A stretch of DNA of 38,853 bases from a virus. Numbering within the stretch: position 1 is the stretch's first letter; the number at the start of each line of letters is the position of its first letter. The stretch lies in the IMG/VR virus record IMGVR_UViG_3300028590_000048, positions 1 to 38,853 of that record; one strand, given 5' to 3'. A model generated the notes under the pieces. It worked only from the letters and a program-made list of their open reading frames with translations. It had not been told where the DNA came from and did no database searches. A program made the translations under genes and the position numbers. This document shows positions 5,136 to 38,803 of the stretch, piece after piece.

Positions 5136-5551
5136 TCCCGAGCGCGTGGCGGGCTGACGATCCGCTGCACGTAGGCGGTACCCGCGGCGACGGCCGCGCC
5201 GACCGCCGCGCCCGCGACCGCCTTCCAGTCACCACCGGAGGTGAAGTCGAACCCGCTGCCGGATATCGCGCCGGACACGGTGAGCGCGACGGCGAGGAAC
5301 ACGGTCGCGACCGCACCCTGAATCGCGGTGCGTCCGGCGCGCTGCTTGGCGTCGCCGCGGGCATCCTCGGGTTCGATCGCGGGCCCGTCGGCGATGATGC
5401 GCGGGGCGTCGGCGATCAGCGCATCCAGATGCGCACGCGCGTCGGCCACGGCCTGTTCGACCGCGGTGCGGGCCGCGTCGTCGGCTTGTCCACGGATCTG
5501 CTCGAGCACCGCCGCCTTGACCAACTCGACAACGTTGTTCGGCGCGCTCAC
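5132..5551 (-). CDS. Holin candidate
   Basis: A 139-residue protein directly downstream of the endolysin (GTGA overlap). Residues 1-65 are soluble and helical (Ala/Asp-rich), followed by two hydrophobic segments (about 73-95, AIQGAVATVFLAVALTVSG, and 108-128, WKAVAGAAVGAAVAAGTAYVQ) and a short basic end (RIVSPPRARE). The RTAIQG...AYVQRIVSPP pattern is like that of holins of actinobacteriophages. It would permeabilise the inner membrane and release the endolysin. An N-terminal soluble domain of this length is longer than in minimal holins. Confidence 0.75.
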   Translation of the reverse strand: MSAPNNVVELVKAAVLEQIRGQADDAARTAVEQAVADARAHLDALIADAPRIIADGPAIEPEDARGDAKQRAGRTAIQGAVATVFLAVALTVSGAISGSGFDFTSGGDWKAVAGAAVGAAVAAGTAYVQRIVSPPRARE

Positions 5552-6990
5552 GACTGCCGCTCCGCGAGCAGGCGCTTGATCTCGGCGACGTCGTTACGGA
5601 GTTCGGCGACCGCCTCGACGACGGTGTTGTCGCGCTTCGGGTCAACCTTCGAGCGGCCGAGGATCGACCAGCCCTTGAATCCGTCGGGGCCGTCTTCACC
5701 GAGGAGTTGGTCGCGGACCTGCGAGGTGTTGCGGTCCATGAACCACAGCACGTCTTTCCAGTTGAGGCCGATGCCTCGGAAGTTCTTGACCTGGGTTTCG
5801 AGCCAGCCCATCTCGTCATCTCCATTCGGCAATACGTCGGCACCGAGAGACCGGCACCGATTCCAGCGAGTGATGCGGTCGGCGAGACCGTTGGTCCCGC
5901 CGTTGACGGCGCGGGTCGCGCCTTCGATGTCGCCCGCGTCGGCGTACGAATTCATGTCGCGGGCGATGAGCCAGTACCAGGTGACGCCCATAAACCCGTA
6001 CCGGTCGGACTCCAGCTGCTGCGGCTCGTCGACGAAGAACGTCGACGTCGGCACGAACCCCATGCCGTGCGCCCACTCCGACAGTCGCGTGTAGTTGTGG
6101 CGGCCGGTGATCTGGATCGGACCGCGGCCAGCGAATCGCACACCGTCGCCGGGCACGGTGTTGCCGAGATCGCGACGTCCCTCGTACGCCTCCCCGGTGG
6201 CGATCTCGCGCATGTACTTCAGGCCTGCGGACTCGTGCCCGACCTGGGCCAGCCACATCGCAGCGCGGTCGACAGTCGTGCAGTCGGCGGCGCGCAGCGA
6301 CTCGACGACCGCGGGGAACAGTTCGCGGTACCGCTCGAGCGCAACCGATCTCCCCATTGCCTCGGCGAGAACTTCCGGCGTCAGGCCAGCCGGTATATCT
6401 GCTGGCATATTTTCCTCGGCCTCGACCGGCACGAATGTGGCGTAGCCCTTAGGCGGGATCAGGGTGGCGAGCTGGTCGAAGCTCATCCAGTAGCCGTACG
6501 GACGGAACCCGCTGTCGGCAATCCACACCGCGCGCTCGGCGTCGTCGAATCCCATGACGGCCATGTAGTGGAAGACGGTCCCGCCGCCGTAGCTCGGGCT
6601 CGACGACCCCTTCACCCCGCGCGGATAGTTCGAGGGCGGGGACACGATGTTCACCACCACGCCCCGCCCGGCGCGGATGCTGGCGACGATGTCGGACCAC
6701 AGCCGCTCCGCCTGCTCGGCGGTCGGCGGGTCGTTCGGCATGGCCCGGGTGACGTATCCGTCGCCGAGGTAGCGGTTCAGGATCGCGGCGATCTGGGTGA
6801 TCGAGTCGGTGCCGTCCTGGTCGTCCCAGCCGATGTTGCCTTCCAGCGCCTCGACCTGTGCGGCGATATCGCGCTCGGCAACGACGATCCCCGCCGAGAC
6901 CAGCACGGTCTGAATCGATGCGGGCCCGCACCACCACCCCGTCTCTTGGCGGACATTGGCCCGGTCGTAGGGCAGCACGATCTCAGCCAT
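5548..6990 (-). CDS. Endolysin (lysin A) with C39 peptidase and GH19 domains
   Basis: A 480-residue cell-wall hydrolase. Residues about 8-190 are a C39-like peptidase (QETGWWCGPASIQ with Cys21, then GGTVFHYMAVMGFDD with the His, then IADSGFRPYGYW). Residues about 205-370 are a GH19 glycosidase (AQVGHESAGLKYMREIATGEAYEGR, RGPIQITGRHNYT), with the Glu of HESAG as acid catalyst candidate. The last 90 residues carry a short domain and a coiled-coil end (VVEAVAELRNDVAEIKRLLA). ATG 6990 is chosen over GTG 6996 because AAGGAG lies 5 nt before the ATG. It cleaves peptidoglycan peptide and glycan bonds at lysis, with the holin genes next door. Confidence 0.93.
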   Translation of the reverse strand: MAEIVLPYDRANVRQETGWWCGPASIQTVLVSAGIVVAERDIAAQVEALEGNIGWDDQDGTDSITQIAAILNRYLGDGYVTRAMPNDPPTAEQAERLWSDIVASIRAGRGVVVNIVSPPSNYPRGVKGSSSPSYGGGTVFHYMAVMGFDDAERAVWIADSGFRPYGYWMSFDQLATLIPPKGYATFVPVEAEENMPADIPAGLTPEVLAEAMGRSVALERYRELFPAVVESLRAADCTTVDRAAMWLAQVGHESAGLKYMREIATGEAYEGRRDLGNTVPGDGVRFAGRGPIQITGRHNYTRLSEWAHGMGFVPTSTFFVDEPQQLESDRYGFMGVTWYWLIARDMNSYADAGDIEGATRAVNGGTNGLADRITRWNRCRSLGADVLPNGDDEMGWLETQVKNFRGIGLNWKDVLWFMDRNTSQVRDQLLGEDGPDGFKGWSILGRSKVDPKRDNTVVEAVAELRNDVAEIKRLLAERQS

Positions 6991-27087: not shown

Positions 27088-27822
27088 TCAGCAGATGTCG
27101 AATTCGCCCGCGTTGGCGCGCCGCAGTCGAATCTCCGCGTCCCTGATGTCCAGTGGGTCGCCGGATGTTTGCGCAGCTGCGAGCCGCTGCTTAGCGGTCT
27201 CGACCGCGATCGAACGCGCCGCCTGCTGGGGCACCAGTGGGTCGACTGTGTAGTGCATGAGCGGCCCGCGGTCGTCCATGCCGCACCCGCTCGCATGACG
27301 GCAGGCCAGGCGCACGGCGAGCTGTACGGCCTCCTCGGGGTCCATATCGGCCTGCGCGGCGGTGTGGAGACTGCCGAGAGCTACCTCGACGCCCGATCCG
27401 ATGGCGAGGACGCCGCCAGCGGGGCGCACGGCGCTGTGAGTGAAGATCCACCAGAGATGCTGTCGCCACGCCAGGATGAGCGTGCCGTCGATACTGGACG
27501 CCTCGTCGCCTCCGCTATTCACCACGGCTGGCTTCGAATCGGCGAGCAGGTCGGTGATTGCCACAGCGACGGCATCGGCCCACAGGTCGGCGGCAGTGTC
27601 GTCGGATGCGTCGGGGGTGTCATCGATCTTCAGGCCGCGCTGGACGACCCGCTGCATCGCGGCGTTGCCACTGGACGCGATGAGCACCCTGTCGCCGTTG
27701 GGGGCGATCAGGGTGCCGATCTTGCTGTCCTGGATGAGCATCCCCGTGCCGCTGTAGTCGGTGCGGGTGTCGCAACCCATCACGACGCGATGCGGGGTGC
27801 GTACGGCGGCTATGACGGTCAC
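27088..27822 (-). CDS. Proteasome/HslV-like Ntn hydrolase
   Basis: A 244-residue protein whose start TVIAAVRTPHRVVMGCDTR aligns with the HslV/proteasome beta fold. If the initiator residue is removed, the nucleophile is Thr1, with Asp17 (GCDTR) and Lys33 (QDSKIG) at exactly the canonical positions; LIASSGNAAMQRVV corresponds to the next helix. The mature protein is longer than HslV (about 175), with a C-terminal charged helix ending in FDIC. GTG 27822 has GGAG 8-9 nt upstream. No HslU or ARC/Mpa-type ATPase is present in the window, so it may act alone, on small peptides, or with host unfoldases. Role in infection unknown. Confidence 0.85.
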   Translation of the reverse strand: MTVIAAVRTPHRVVMGCDTRTDYSGTGMLIQDSKIGTLIAPNGDRVLIASSGNAAMQRVVQRGLKIDDTPDASDDTAADLWADAVAVAITDLLADSKPAVVNSGGDEASSIDGTLILAWRQHLWWIFTHSAVRPAGGVLAIGSGVEVALGSLHTAAQADMDPEEAVQLAVRLACRHASGCGMDDRGPLMHYTVDPLVPQQAARSIAVETAKQRLAAAQTSGDPLDIRDAEIRLRRANAGEFDIC

Positions 27823-30634: not shown

Positions 30635-31008
30635 CAGGACACTCCGATCGGGATCTTGAACCGTGGGTCAATGACGGGGAAATAGAACCGCTCCCCGCGC
30701 GCGGCGCTGTCCCACGTGCACCGGAACTCCGCGTCCCACACACGCATCCGCGGTGCCTGCGTGGCCGCCCGGATGGCGTGGTCGAGCACCGCGCCGTCGG
30801 ACTCATCGAGGATCGGAGCGAGCGTCGGGTGCGCTACCTCCCGACACCGGTCCCGGGGGATCGCGCGCGCGTTCGAGATCTCGCCGTACGGGTGCCAGCC
30901 TTGATCCGCGAACGGATCGGTCGGCACATCCCAGGGGTGTAGCTCGGCGAGCCGGGTGATCAGGATCTCCCTGGCCGCCCGCTGAGCCGGGCCGAGGTGC
31001 TCGATCAT
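30634..31008 (-). CDS. Hypothetical protein, 124 aa
   Basis: Not recognised. Helical start (LGPAQRAAREILITRLAEL), then WDVPTDPFADQGWHPYGEIS, and a C-terminal element MRVWDAEFRCTW (residues 88-99) that again has the RxWDxxF pattern seen in neighbouring proteins. No zinc or catalytic motif. ATG 31008 overlaps the upstream stop (ATGA). Confidence 0.68.
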   Translation of the reverse strand: MIEHLGPAQRAAREILITRLAELHPWDVPTDPFADQGWHPYGEISNARAIPRDRCREVAHPTLAPILDESDGAVLDHAIRAATQAPRMRVWDAEFRCTWDSAARGERFYFPVIDPRFKIPIGVS

Positions 31009-31703
31009 CGCGGCTCTCCGACGACATCGAGGTGGGCACGGCGCACGCGCAGGAGGAAGTCCTCGATCGGCACCTCGTGCGGTTCGTCGGGTAGCGCGGT
31101 CACCGCGCCGTTGAACTTGGCTTCGTACTCCTCGATCAGCCGCTTCGCGCACTTCGCCTCGGGGTCGGCGAGCACCTGCTCACCGAATGCGAAGAACGGG
31201 GCGGGGTCCGGCGCGCGGATGGGCAACTCGCCCGTCGTGTACAGCTCGTACCCCTGCCACAGCACGCGCATTGTGTGGCGGGCGTGCTTCTCGCGGCGGG
31301 TCTCCAGGCTGCCCTGGAACCGGCCGCGCTCGATCAGTCGATGGAACTGGGACACCGCGTAGCCGAAGAACGCGTTGCGGACACGGTGGGCGGACAGGAA
31401 ACACTCACGCAGCGACACGAGTTCGAGTCCCTCGTCACTGGCGTGGGTCCACTCGTCGAGCCACAGCACCTCCGATGCGGTCGGGTTGCACGACAGCATC
31501 AGACTCAGCGCCTTGCCGATCTCGTGGTAGGTCGCGTCGGCACCGTTGCGGCCCTTCTTCGTGGCGCGCTCACGCGAGGGCGGGTGCAGCCCGAGCAGGA
31601 TCTCGGTGGGCTCGACGTATATCCCGGTGTAGTCGATATCGGAGGTGGGCGTGTTGAGGCCGTAGGCGGTTGAGCCGACCACGCCTTCGAGGAGCAGGTT
31701 CAC
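31005..31703 (-). CDS. RlaP-like nucleotidyltransferase
   Basis: A 232-residue protein beginning with the pol-beta nucleotidyltransferase signature: GSTAYGLNTPTSDIDYTGIYV (Gly10-Ser11, Asp22, Asp24). Conserved features of the RlaP family follow: ATYHEIGKALSLMLSCNPTASEVLW and a helical C-terminal half with RREKHARHTMRVLWQGYEL. RlaP proteins are often linked to RNA ligases, and may process RNA ends; no ligase is seen in this window. GTG 31703 has AAGGAGGCACCCG upstream and overlaps the upstream stop. Confidence 0.85.
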   Translation of the reverse strand: MNLLLEGVVGSTAYGLNTPTSDIDYTGIYVEPTEILLGLHPPSRERATKKGRNGADATYHEIGKALSLMLSCNPTASEVLWLDEWTHASDEGLELVSLRECFLSAHRVRNAFFGYAVSQFHRLIERGRFQGSLETRREKHARHTMRVLWQGYELYTTGELPIRAPDPAPFFAFGEQVLADPEAKCAKRLIEEYEAKFNGAVTALPDEPHEVPIEDFLLRVRRAHLDVVGEPR

Positions 31704-32164
31704 CGGGTGCCTCCTTCGGGATGGGTGAGGAAGTGGTCGATGGTTCGGGCCATGTCCCGCATCGCCTCTCGGTCGCGGCGCACGCGCTCCAGCTCGGCCT
31801 GCCACCACTGGCTCACCGGCGTGGGCGGGGAGGGCTCGACGAGCGACACCACCACGTGCCCGCCGCCGGGGATCAGCAGGTCGGCCTGAGTGGACTGATC
31901 GACGAACACCTGCCCGCCACTGCCCGGCGCGTGCTCGAACCCGTGGACCCGCACGTAGGTGCCGCTGAGCACCGCCCAGATGGTGCGGGCATGGAACACA
32001 CTGGCGAGCGGGGCGAGCTGGGTGCAGTCGCCCAGCAGGATCCGGCCCGCGAGGTAGGGCTTGGTCTCCGACCAGTAGGTGCCGACCTCGGGACGCGCGC
32101 CGGTCAAGGTGGTCAGATGCTCGACGCCGCCCGGCGTTTCGATGACGATCTCTACATCGATCAC
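31700..32164 (-). CDS. Hypothetical protein, 154 aa
   Basis: Not recognised. Beta-rich N-terminal domain (DVEIVIETPGGVEHLTTLTG, then a hydrophobic middle FHARTIWAVLSGTYVRVHG), C-terminal helix ending in DHFLTHPEGG. GTG 32164 has GGAGGTGCCCG upstream and overlaps the upstream stop (GTGA). Nothing indicates a function. Confidence 0.68.
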   Translation of the reverse strand: MIDVEIVIETPGGVEHLTTLTGARPEVGTYWSETKPYLAGRILLGDCTQLAPLASVFHARTIWAVLSGTYVRVHGFEHAPGSGGQVFVDQSTQADLLIPGGGHVVVSLVEPSPPTPVSQWWQAELERVRRDREAMRDMARTIDHFLTHPEGGTR

Positions 32165-32463
32165 CGGGCACCTCCGGTGAAGAACTCGCGTGCCGCGGCG
32201 AGGGTGGCGGTCCCCATCTCCCGGATCCCGGCGGCGATCTCGCGGGCGAGGGATTGACGGGTCGGCATCCGCTTCGGCAGCGACCTGAACTCGTGGCCGA
32301 ACTCGCTGTCGGGGTGCAGCTCTCGCCACGCGTCATCAGCCGCCCGATAGCGCTCGCTGAATCGAGGGTGCGGTTTCCGTGCTTCCGCCGCCTCGGCGAT
32401 CATCCGATTCGCGTAGCGGTTGATGAATTCGAGGTAGCTCTCTCGGGTCTCGACATCGGCCAT
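32161..32463 (-). CDS. Hypothetical helical protein, 100 aa
   Basis: Not recognised. All-helical appearance with many Arg/Glu (ESYLEFINRYANRMIAEAAEARK, ERYRAADDAWRELHP). No zinc or membrane segment. ATG 32463 lies 3 nt after the upstream stop. Could be a small nucleic-acid-binding or adaptor protein; composition alone does not decide. Confidence 0.68.
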   Translation of the reverse strand: MADVETRESYLEFINRYANRMIAEAAEARKPHPRFSERYRAADDAWRELHPDSEFGHEFRSLPKRMPTRQSLAREIAAGIREMGTATLAAAREFFTGGAR

Positions 32464-36221: not shown

Positions 36222-36553
36222 CGCAGCACCGCCGACTGCTCGCACTGGCAGGGCTTCTGGCCGCACCGCGGGCACTCGCCGCAGTAGTCGACGCAGGGCA
36301 GGCGGTCCTCGTCGCCGCCGTGATGGATCCAGGACAGCGACGCGATGCCGTAGGTGGCGTGGCCGTAGTCGTCGATCTCGGCGAACACCGCGTGATCGCC
36401 GTCGATGTAGTTCGCGACCGTGCGGCGATCGTGGTGAGAGACCGCGAAATCCGATGGGTTGATGGGCGACTCGACACCGTGTGCCTTCGCGAATTCGACG
36501 GCCTCGGCGAGGGCGGTGGCGGTGCAGGTCGGGCAGGGGTCGCGGTCAGGCAC
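36218..36553 (-). CDS. Cys-rich protein with C-terminal CxxC pair, 111 aa
   Basis: Starts with DPCPTCTATALAEAVEFAKA and ends with CGECPRCGQKPCQCE, giving at least four ligand cysteines at the C-terminus plus a CPTC at the start. The middle is beta-rich (VANYIDGDHAVFAEIDD). GTG 36553 has GGGAGAGCGCC upstream and overlaps the previous gene by 8 nt. Function unknown; metal binding likely. Confidence 0.68.
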   Translation of the reverse strand: MPDRDPCPTCTATALAEAVEFAKAHGVESPINPSDFAVSHHDRRTVANYIDGDHAVFAEIDDYGHATYGIASLSWIHHGGDEDRLPCVDYCGECPRCGQKPCQCEQSAVLR

Positions 36554-36794
36554 GGCGCTCTCCCTCGATCAGATCCGCGATGGCCCGCAGCGCCGTGGGC
36601 GTGAGTCCGTACGCCGCGAACGGCACCGGTTGGAACCCGCCTTCGATCACCCGCCCCGCCTCGCAGTGCCGCATGCCCTCGGGGGCATCGGGGTGGTCGA
36701 GGACGACCATGGTCTCCCCGCCCTTGTCGGTGAGGCTGATCGTGCTGCCGGTGTCGGTGGTGATGGTGCGATCGGTTGGGGTCTGCTCGGTCAT
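36546..36794 (-). CDS. First gene of the early operon, hypothetical, 82 aa
   Basis: Not recognised. Beta-rich N-terminus (TITTDTGSTISLTDKGGETMVVLDH), then a helical end (LTPTALRAIADLIEGERR). ATG 36794 is the first start after the gene-free iteron stretch and begins the 19-gene overlapping operon that runs to 28864. The ribosome-binding site is weak (GAAAGCCGC). As the first gene behind a probable promoter, it should be among the earliest expressed. Confidence 0.65.
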   Translation of the reverse strand: MTEQTPTDRTITTDTGSTISLTDKGGETMVVLDHPDAPEGMRHCEAGRVIEGGFQPVPFAAYGLTPTALRAIADLIEGERRA

Positions 36795-37228
36795 TGGCGC
36801 GGCTTTCCGTGCTGGTCGGTCGGTCTGGGACAGGTGTGCGGATTCGGAGTGGTGGTTCGGTAAGCGAACTTTTCTCAACCGGTCCGGGAATCGCGGCGCG
36901 GGATCCGCTCGCTCGTACACACCTCGGAGGAGATTCGGTTTTATCCACAGGCGTCGCGCGGGCGCTGGTGAGGTTGCGTCGAAAGCCGGGGACGCGCATG
37001 TGGTTGGTGTGTGGTTGGTAAGTAATGGTTGGTGGGGTGACACCCATGGCCCATAGACACGCTCGAAATGGCCCCCAGACATTGCTGAGATGGCCCCCAG
37101 ACTTATCGGCGTTTCACATGTCCAGGTGACATCCATGTCCCCCAGACCGGTTGAGCCGGTGGAAGTCTGGGTGACATGGGCGGCCCCCAGACTTGCCAGC
37201 CTGTGGATAACTCCAGGGGACACTGATG
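36795..37228. other. Putative replication origin: DnaA boxes and iterons
   Basis: A 434-nt stretch without genes. It contains two perfect DnaA boxes TTATCCACA (36941-36949, and reverse 37202-37210), three copies of TGGTTGGT (37001-37008, 37012-37019, 37026-37033) and the 13-bp repeat array listed separately. The stretch is flanked by a winged-HTH gene and the first gene of the early operon. By layout it resembles iteron-type plasmid or phage origins, but it must also hold the early promoter, so the repeats could be operators. A short stem GTTCG-GTAAG-CGAAC (36855-36869) followed by TTTTCTC is a weak rightward terminator candidate. Confidence 0.6.
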
Positions 37229-37238
37229 TCACCCAGAC
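37046..37238 (-). repeat. 13-bp iteron-like repeats GTCTGGGGGCCAT
   Basis: Leftward copies: 37226-37238 (GTCTGGGTGACAT), 37180-37192 (ending CCGC), 37135-37147 (GTCTGGGGGACAT), 37090-37102, 37068-37080 (both GTCTGGGGGCCAT) and 37046-37058 (GTCTATGGGCCAT). Start-to-start steps are 46, 45, 45, 22 and 22, i.e. multiples of about 22.5 bp. One copy is inverted (37165-37177) and one is degenerate (37118-37130). The first copy overlaps the last codons of the winged-HTH gene. Same-face helical phasing points to a protein-binding array. Confidence 0.88.
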
Positions 37239-37615
37239 TGCGGTGGCGGATACTCCTTCTCGTCCGGATCCAGCATCGGCAAATCCATCAGATTCGACGG
37301 CACCGTCAGCCGATACACGTCCGCCTGCTTCGCGTGCCGGTTCCCCTGCTTCGTCCGCTGGAGAAATCCCCAGTCCCGCAGATCCGACAGGGACCGCTTC
37401 ACGGTCCGCTCCGAGATGCACATCACCCGCGCCAGACGCTCCACGCCCGGCCGCACGTTCGATCCGTCCGCGTCGCCGTACTGCGCCGCGATGGCACCCA
37501 GATACTTCAGCGGGGCAGGCATCTTCACCCGCCGCAACCACCGCTCCCACTCGAAGCGGTCGACCGGTTGCAGGTTCGACACATCGACGTACACCTCTAT
37601 CTCGGCCGAGACCAT
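37229..37615 (-). CDS. Winged-HTH protein, possible replication initiator or array-binding regulator
   Basis: A 128-residue protein. Residues about 30-100 are a winged helix: LKYLGAIAAQYGDADGSNVR, then GVERLARVMCISERTVKRSL and LRDWGFLQRTKQG, the form of HTH_36/replisome-organiser N-terminal domains (phage replication proteins O/DnaD type). The N-terminus has EVYVDVSNLQ, the C-terminus is acidic and Pro-rich. It stops inside the repeat array it may bind. ATG 37615 is preceded by GGAAGGCGAGCGCG. It could be a replication initiator or a repressor; the sequence alone does not decide. Confidence 0.75.
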   Translation of the reverse strand: MVSAEIEVYVDVSNLQPVDRFEWERWLRRVKMPAPLKYLGAIAAQYGDADGSNVRPGVERLARVMCISERTVKRSLSDLRDWGFLQRTKQGNRHAKQADVYRLTVPSNLMDLPMLDPDEKEYPPPQSG

Positions 37616-37645
37616 CGCGCTCGCCTTCCACCACCCTTGCCCCGG

Positions 37646-38803
37646 TCATGACATTGCTCCGAAATCCGCATCGGCCACTGGCAGTACGTACTGCGGGCCG
37701 CACTCGCTCGGTACCGCCGTCTCGCCGAATTCGAACAATGGATCCATGGAGTCGAACAGCGGATCAGGACCGCAGTTGGTGGAGCACAACGAGGTGCGTG
37801 CCATCTCTTCGACCGTGTCGGGGTCGTCCACTGTGCCGCCCCATCCCCATTTCTTGCGATGCTTGGGGATATCGGGGCGGTCGGCGATCTCCGCCTCCAC
37901 CTGATCGACCATCTGAATGAACGGGTCGTGCGGATATGCGCAGCGCCAACGGTCCGGCTCGCCCGCTGTGGCGTTCGCCAGGCACCCGCACTCCCCGGAC
38001 ATGCCCAACTTCTGAGCCACCGGGTTGACGGGGATGTCCGGGAACATCAGTCGGTAGGCGATCAGGTCGGCCTTGTGCCACACCGCCAACGGCGAGACCC
38101 ATAGGGTGGTGCCGCGTGCGTCGGCGTACGGGATGGTGGTGCGGGTCTTGGACTCAGAGCGGCGGCGCCCAGCAATGAACACCACGCGGTGATGCTTTGA
38201 TCCGCTGATCCCGAAGTGATGCGGAACCTTCTCCAGCGCACGTTCCTTGAGTCGCTGATACATGACTCCATGCGCGGCCGGGCCCGGGAACCCGCCCGGC
38301 CATGCCCGCACCAGCTCTCCCGTCGCGCGGCTGCGCGCCATCACCGTGCCCCGCACCAGGTCGAAATAGCCTTCTCCCGGTTTCGGGGTGTGCTCGATCA
38401 ACGGCACGCCCCACCGCGACGCGGTGGCGCGCACAAAATCTCGCGTCGCCTCGATTCCGGTTTGAGTGTTGGCATGCACCTGATGGGTGGCTACGTCACG
38501 AAAGATATGCGCGACGGTGTAGGAGTCGTTGCCGCCGGACACCAGCGAGCAGAACCCGACGACCTCTTTGCCGGAGGCGTGCTCATCGATCGCCCGGTCG
38601 AACTTGTTCTGCGCCAACCGGATCAACGCATGTACACGAGACTCACGCTCGGAGCGGGTCAGGCGCACAACTAGATCCAGTGGCGTCGGATACTCCGGAT
38701 GTGGGTCCAGAGGGTTCGGATCAATGGGGACGTCGGAGTCCAGGCCCAGCGGCAAGGTCGCCGCAGATGGGCGATGACGAGACTCGCGCGCGCTGCCAGT
38801 CAT
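37646..38803 (-). CDS. PAPS reductase/DndC-like enzyme
   Basis: A 385-residue protein of the adenine nucleotide alpha-hydrolase (PP-loop) type: SLVSGGNDSYTVAHI with SGGNDS at residues 89-94, then VHANTQTGIEATRDFV (the TG-E step of PAPS reductases), GVPLIEHTPK and a conserved WVSPLAVWHKADLIAY. Cys272, Cys274, Cys288, Cys340 and Cys344 could bind an iron-sulfur cluster, as in DndC-type proteins. Possible roles are DNA phosphorothioation-like or base thiolation chemistry, or sulfur supply; no Dnd partners are in view. ATG 38803 overlaps the upstream stop (ATGA). Confidence 0.85.
   Translation of the reverse strand: MTGSARESRHRPSAATLPLGLDSDVPIDPNPLDPHPEYPTPLDLVVRLTRSERESRVHALIRLAQNKFDRAIDEHASGKEVVGFCSLVSGGNDSYTVAHIFRDVATHQVHANTQTGIEATRDFVRATASRWGVPLIEHTPKPGEGYFDLVRGTVMARSRATGELVRAWPGGFPGPAAHGVMYQRLKERALEKVPHHFGISGSKHHRVVFIAGRRRSESKTRTTIPYADARGTTLWVSPLAVWHKADLIAYRLMFPDIPVNPVAQKLGMSGECGCLANATAGEPDRWRCAYPHDPFIQMVDQVEAEIADRPDIPKHRKKWGWGGTVDDPDTVEEMARTSLCSTNCGPDPLFDSMDPLFEFGETAVPSECGPQYVLPVADADFGAMS

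Follow-up and report, generated by a model that had tools for sequence, protein, structure and literature searches.

A putative phage replication origin beside the gene of its predicted winged-helix initiator in a temperate actinobacterial phage

In bacteriophage lambda and the Stx phages, the gene of the initiator O is associated with iterons and a tract of low stability (treated in part of PMC7466680). In iteron plasmids such as RK2, F and R6K, direct repeats are read by a Rep protein that has at least two winged helices, according to the section on these plasmids in PMC10797057. In the extrachromosomal RepA/parABS mycobacteriophages the origin lies beside an HTH protein; in the portion of PMC7157519 concerned with these phages, RepA is 320–350 aa in length, parABS is present and no repeats are identified. 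A further group is formed by long-form actinophage initiators, e.g. gene 15 of the M. abscessus prophage prophiGD34-2, where iterons lie inside a gene of ~285 aa that has a cysteine-rich, zinc-finger-like tail.

The sequence analysed here (termed the window) is an entire virus record of 38,853 bp. Positions 36941–37238 very probably constitute the origin from which a temperate actinobacterial phage of the Nocardia type is replicated, with the adjacent winged helix-turn-helix (wHTH) protein as its initiator. As in lambda, iterons and a tract of putatively low stability accompany an initiator gene, and PHROG matches tie the wHTH protein to O-like initiators. Unlike lambda, the iterons are outside the reading frame, which stops in the first dyad, and there is no C-terminal half. 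The DnaA boxes are inside the module, the tract is A/C-rich rather than AT-rich, and no P-like partner was identified (DnaB_C alone was searched for, in 22 records). The long-form actinophage initiators share a related wHTH (32–40% identity by tblastn), iterons and DnaA boxes with the present locus. As in the iteron plasmids, direct repeats are proposed to be read by the initiator, but with one winged helix in place of two or more (a single relative, L149, has two in tandem). With the RepA/parABS phages the locus has in common that an HTH protein is encoded next to the putative origin in an actinobacterial phage, whereas ParA and ParB were not detected in the 22 records.

The repeat array and its surroundings

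The features of the region are as follows, in the order of minus-strand transcription:

37229–37615, minus strand: wHTH gene, predicted initiator, 128 aa; resembles the N-terminal DNA-binding half of O-like initiators
37211–37238, minus strand: first dyad; the wHTH gene has its stop codon (37229–37231) within it
37202–37210, minus strand: DnaA box TTATCCACA, between copies 5 and 6 of the 13-mer
37163–37194, minus strand: second dyad
37120–37147, minus strand: third dyad
37090–37102, minus strand: iteron 1, GTCTGGGGGCCAT
37068–37080, minus strand: iteron 2, GTCTGGGGGCCAT
37036–37058, minus strand: iteron 3, GTCTATGGGCCAT, which with an inverted arm forms the closing dyad
36993–37037, minus strand: candidate unwinding element, an A/C-rich block poor in G (3 of 45 nt) that contains ACCAACC repeats
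36966–36979, minus strand: conserved distal box ACGCAACCTCACCA / ACGCAACTCAC
36941–36949, plus strand: second DnaA box TTATCCACA
36546–36794, minus strand: first gene beyond the putative origin; opens the early operon; 82 aa, no family assigned
Starts at 37046, 37068, 37090, 37135, 37180 and 37226: six direct 13-mers, spaced 22, 22, 45, 45 and 46 bp
37165–37177: inverted copy of the 13-mer

The repeat array is real and lies far above chance. Taking the best count of copies with two mismatches or fewer within 300 bp, positions 36801–37400 contain 6 copies, as against 1–2 in each of 40 shuffles; the 61 other 600-bp tiles of the window show 5 copies in one case, 3 in 16 and 1–2 in 44. Most of the apparently single copies are halves of dyads (37211–37238, 37163–37194, 37120–37147 and the arm at 37036–37058). 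Thus the array is made up of dyads and three 22-bp iterons in tandem, arranged on a lattice of about 22/45 bp. The six direct repeats, their spacings and the inverted copy had been described in an earlier note on this DNA and are borne out by the repeat positions, and the interval given there, 36941–37238, proves to be the whole conserved module. The neighboring wHTH gene is likewise where that note placed it; its TGA stop codon falls within the last 13-mer copy. Two perfect DnaA boxes on opposite strands are also present, and the exact TTATCCACA sequence occurs nowhere else in the 38,853 bp; however, they do not flank the array on both sides as had been claimed, since one of them is between copies 5 and 6.

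Scattered, stoperator-like operators were considered and rejected: the window has 17 matches to the 13-mer at three mismatches or fewer, where 14.4 are expected, and all matches with one mismatch or fewer are within the array. There are no Rfam families or tRNA genes in the window and no terminators near the array.

On the minus strand the order of transcription is a PAPS-reductase-like gene, the 128-aa wHTH gene, the array and then small early genes. The capsid protein shows 69%–80% identity to those of 14 of 16 related viral contigs and 34% to the other two; no near match to the record was found in the phage collection, nor a shared end repeat by which it could be closed as a circle. Elsewhere in the window, all on the minus strand, are a gene similar to HslV/proteasome-type peptidases (27088–27822; phrog_1040, 1.6e-11; PF00227, 8.1e-6), a probable lysin (5548–6990) that combines a C39-like peptidase part with a weak match to GH19 chitinases, and, in the early operon, an RlaP-type nucleotidyltransferase (31005–31703, seen on the longer frame 31005–32336).

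The wHTH protein has a single wHTH domain in 128 aa (structure model with pLDDT 86.5). Its PHROG matches (1.2e-7 to 5.7e-6) are to the N-terminal parts of phage families annotated as “replication initiation O-like” (phrog_391, 1.2e-7) and “replication initiation” (phrog_1032, phrog_270 and phrog_4617). Foldseek searches with the model returned generic winged helices (best E-value = 0.009), with the plasmid initiator entries 4pt7 and 5kbj at E-values of 0.02–0.06. A VIA structure search also gave generic winged helices (Z up to 7.9), and 4pt7 and 5kbj were absent among the best 50 matches listed. The best reading of these similarities is that the protein is a predicted phage origin initiator, resembling the DNA-binding half of lambda O-like initiators.

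The A/C block is 44% AT against a background of 34% and ranks at 5.7% for instability in the window. It is not the weakest stretch there by the stability ranking, and across 14 representative relatives the rank is 0.5%–11.5%, i.e. the block is only modestly unstable. The idea that the GGTTGG pair of the opposite strand forms a G-quadruplex is weakened, as the CCAACC pair is absent in L098, L099, L107, L110, L115 and L119. GC skew, which the earlier note had put forward as a check, gave no support: in the relatives G007 and G010 the extremes are elsewhere than the array, and the skew shifts locally at the array in the direction opposite to that of the standard bidirectional origin.

A conserved module outside or inside the gene

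A first scan of genome contigs using a narrow alignment gave no match. When viral contigs, bacterial genomes and a plasmid collection were scanned at the protein level, wHTH relatives at 30%–71% identity were obtained, besides the contig of the query itself. Named hosts are Nocardia species and Micromonospora sp. NBC_00855. Thirty-three loci were compared for layout, 25 of the short form (the window included, many being near-duplicates) and 8 of the long form; L103, L104, L105, L108, L109, L116 and L117, which lie on contigs already represented by earlier loci, were dropped before these counts. After removal of near-identical copies, 14 representatives of the 25 short forms were used in comparisons of covariation, stability, stop codon and module, and DnaA boxes.

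The array is found 3′ of the gene in all 25 short-form loci and in none of the 8 long-form relatives. The order following the short-form gene is a first dyad, DnaA box(es), in most cases further dyads, 3–4 iterons at a pitch of 21–23 bp, a closing dyad arm and the G-poor A/C block. In all 14 representatives the gene stops within or right at the first dyad, and the A/C block is present. A box similar to “ACGCAACTCACGACCGC” follows the block in most short forms (degenerate or absent in L052 and L053), and an 18-bp probe of the distal box picked out 9 viral contigs, 8 of which have an iteron module upstream of it. The letters of the iterons vary between phages while the layout is constant. The short forms are one group in the tree (support 96).

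Short-form or related wHTH proteins are present in 16 of 150 genomes of the genus Nocardia and in 16 of 401 genomes of a family sample, two sets that overlap. In the Nocardia set, the array is accompanied by one or more DnaA boxes in every new locus read (L139–L150; ten distinct and two duplicates). Of the 10 new loci in the family set, 9 have repeats surrounding the stop codon; L159 belongs to the long forms. The initiator of L149, encoded by a single 255-aa frame next to a similar array, contains a tandem pair of wHTH domains.

DnaA boxes of the type [TC]T[AG]TCCACA number 22 in 4.9 kb of origin sequence versus 1 in 126.3 kb elsewhere and are present in all 14 representatives. Of 10 more distant, family-level loci, 9 lack a DnaA box near the array; L156 alone has one. 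Thus DnaA cannot be a universal part of this type of origin, and in the wider family the initiator would have to do more of the work.

The long-form relatives (~216 aa or more) have repeats in the reading frame directly after the wHTH part in 8 of 8 cases. Gene 15 of prophiGD34-2 carries five iterons and two TGTGGACAA boxes in frame; in-gene DnaA boxes with one mismatch or fewer are also present in L059, L111, L112 and L113, and L112, L113 and L167 have a similar distal A/C block and an ACGCAAC box. Iterons within the gene, i.e. an origin within O, are the lambda arrangement in the pertinent part of PMC7466680. The short forms give the impression of being this same origin, the reading frame ending at its edge. 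No description of such an origin family was found in the open-access literature (subscription journals were mostly outside the scope of the search); the family is apparently undescribed, although the mechanism is not new.

Covariation of wHTH residues with iteron letters

Residue 70, in the recognition helix of the wHTH protein, is the protein column best associated with iteron position 9. Among the 14 representatives, R/K versus P/A at residue 70 pairs with G versus A at position 9, and K versus I/L at residue 73 pairs with G versus T at position 8, both with no exception. Residue 17 matches positions 6 and 8 equally well as residue 73, and the link of residue 73 is thus less specific. In a tree built without the helix, residue 70 and position 9 each undergo 4 changes, a number as low being reached in 600 of 2000 label shuffles. 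Thus inheritance alone does not explain the covariation.

The recognition rule was frozen in writing before the ten new distinct Nocardia loci were read. With the exact letter, position 9 was right in 8 of 10 and position 8 in 8 of the 9 loci covered. In a binary wording made afterwards, a basic residue 70 versus G held in 10 of 10; in the further family set it held in 8 of 9, the exception being L156. Altogether the pairing of basic residue 70 with G at position 9 is seen in 32 of 33 loci (Fisher p = 1.8e-8, relatedness ignored). The exact rule for position 9 failed in L147, L148 and L158, which have C and not A, and that for position 8 failed in L149. The duplicates L140 and L150 and the long form L159 were left out. 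For the test loci, iteron letters were copied by hand from printed sequences, and a script confirmed that they occur there; the 13-mer register of L148, L155, L157 and L160 was set after looking, and a single copy was used for each of L155 and L157. The comparison of relatives, in which relatedness is only partly controlled, suggests which wHTH residues read which DNA letters. According to the section of a 2024 review dealing with lambda O (PMC10797057), there is no solved structure of that protein bound to iterons.

Proposed initiation and lifestyle

From the sequence comparisons we infer the following course of initiation. The wHTH protein would bind the dyads and the iterons of 22-bp pitch through its recognition helix, with host DnaA binding the DnaA boxes in the Nocardia branch of the family. 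The initiator complex would then open the adjacent A/C block. Host helicase would be loaded there, because no phage DnaB-type helicase was found. The earlier note's reading of the array as an origin that binds an initiator is strongly supported by the relatives.

Alternatively, the array may be only a transcriptional operator, with the wHTH protein as repressor of its own gene and of the early operon that follows. In favor of this, the array precedes that operon, its first dyad extends into the end of the wHTH gene, and winged helices of the same fold are common in repressors. However, a scan of 36600–37800 limited to sigma-70 type promoters found none, the repeats of long-form relatives are in the middle of a reading frame, DnaA boxes belong to the conserved module and the family matches are to replication initiators; this explanation is therefore unlikely. 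An operator of the early operon, as the earlier note had also suggested, may still be a second function of the origin, although no promoter-like site was found for it, and through the dyads that overlap with the end of the gene, feedback on expression could also occur.

A parS-like partition site combined with the origin of a phage-plasmid is very improbable: one relative was deposited as a linear plasmid and the present record has no integrase, but Pfam models for ParA (AAA_31, PF13614) and ParB_N (PF02195) match in 0 of 22 records, a tyrosine integrase is found in 17 of 22, the linear “plasmid” included, and the right edge of the window cuts an open reading frame. That relative, L119 (CP108834.1, 58.7 kb, Micromonospora sp. 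NBC_00855), is a phage with integrase, YqaJ, RecT and terminase genes and the same origin type. Among the short-form records 13 of 17 have the integrase. The lack of an integrase in the present record is of uncertain weight, since an open reading frame is cut at its right edge and other records extend to 33–59 kb. The plasmid-like maintenance proposed in the earlier note thus finds no support. Among other relatives, G007 carries genes similar to RecE/RecT and to RuvC, and in G010 one gene matches RusA-like and clamp families.

As to the origin reading, there is no match to DnaB_C, AAA_31 or ParB_N in the 22 records, and 17 have an integrase. The phage thus most likely integrates, excises and replicates from the array by means of host helicase, and in the Nocardia branch host DnaA would assist.

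It is possible, if somewhat short of probable, that in these detached lambda-like origins a one-domain initiator of ~115–130 aa, which lacks the helicase-recruiting half, suffices together with host factors. Specificity would then have been re-set repeatedly by exchange of two recognition-helix residues, 70 (paired with iteron position 9) and 73 (paired with position 8, where K goes with G and I, L, V or M with T), accompanied by change of every iteron. The outcome would be numerous distinct origin specificities able to coexist within a host. The family shows that a phage origin can lie inside or outside its own initiator gene. Its natural variation predicts base contacts for O-like winged helices, and it would offer small origins for Nocardia and relatives.
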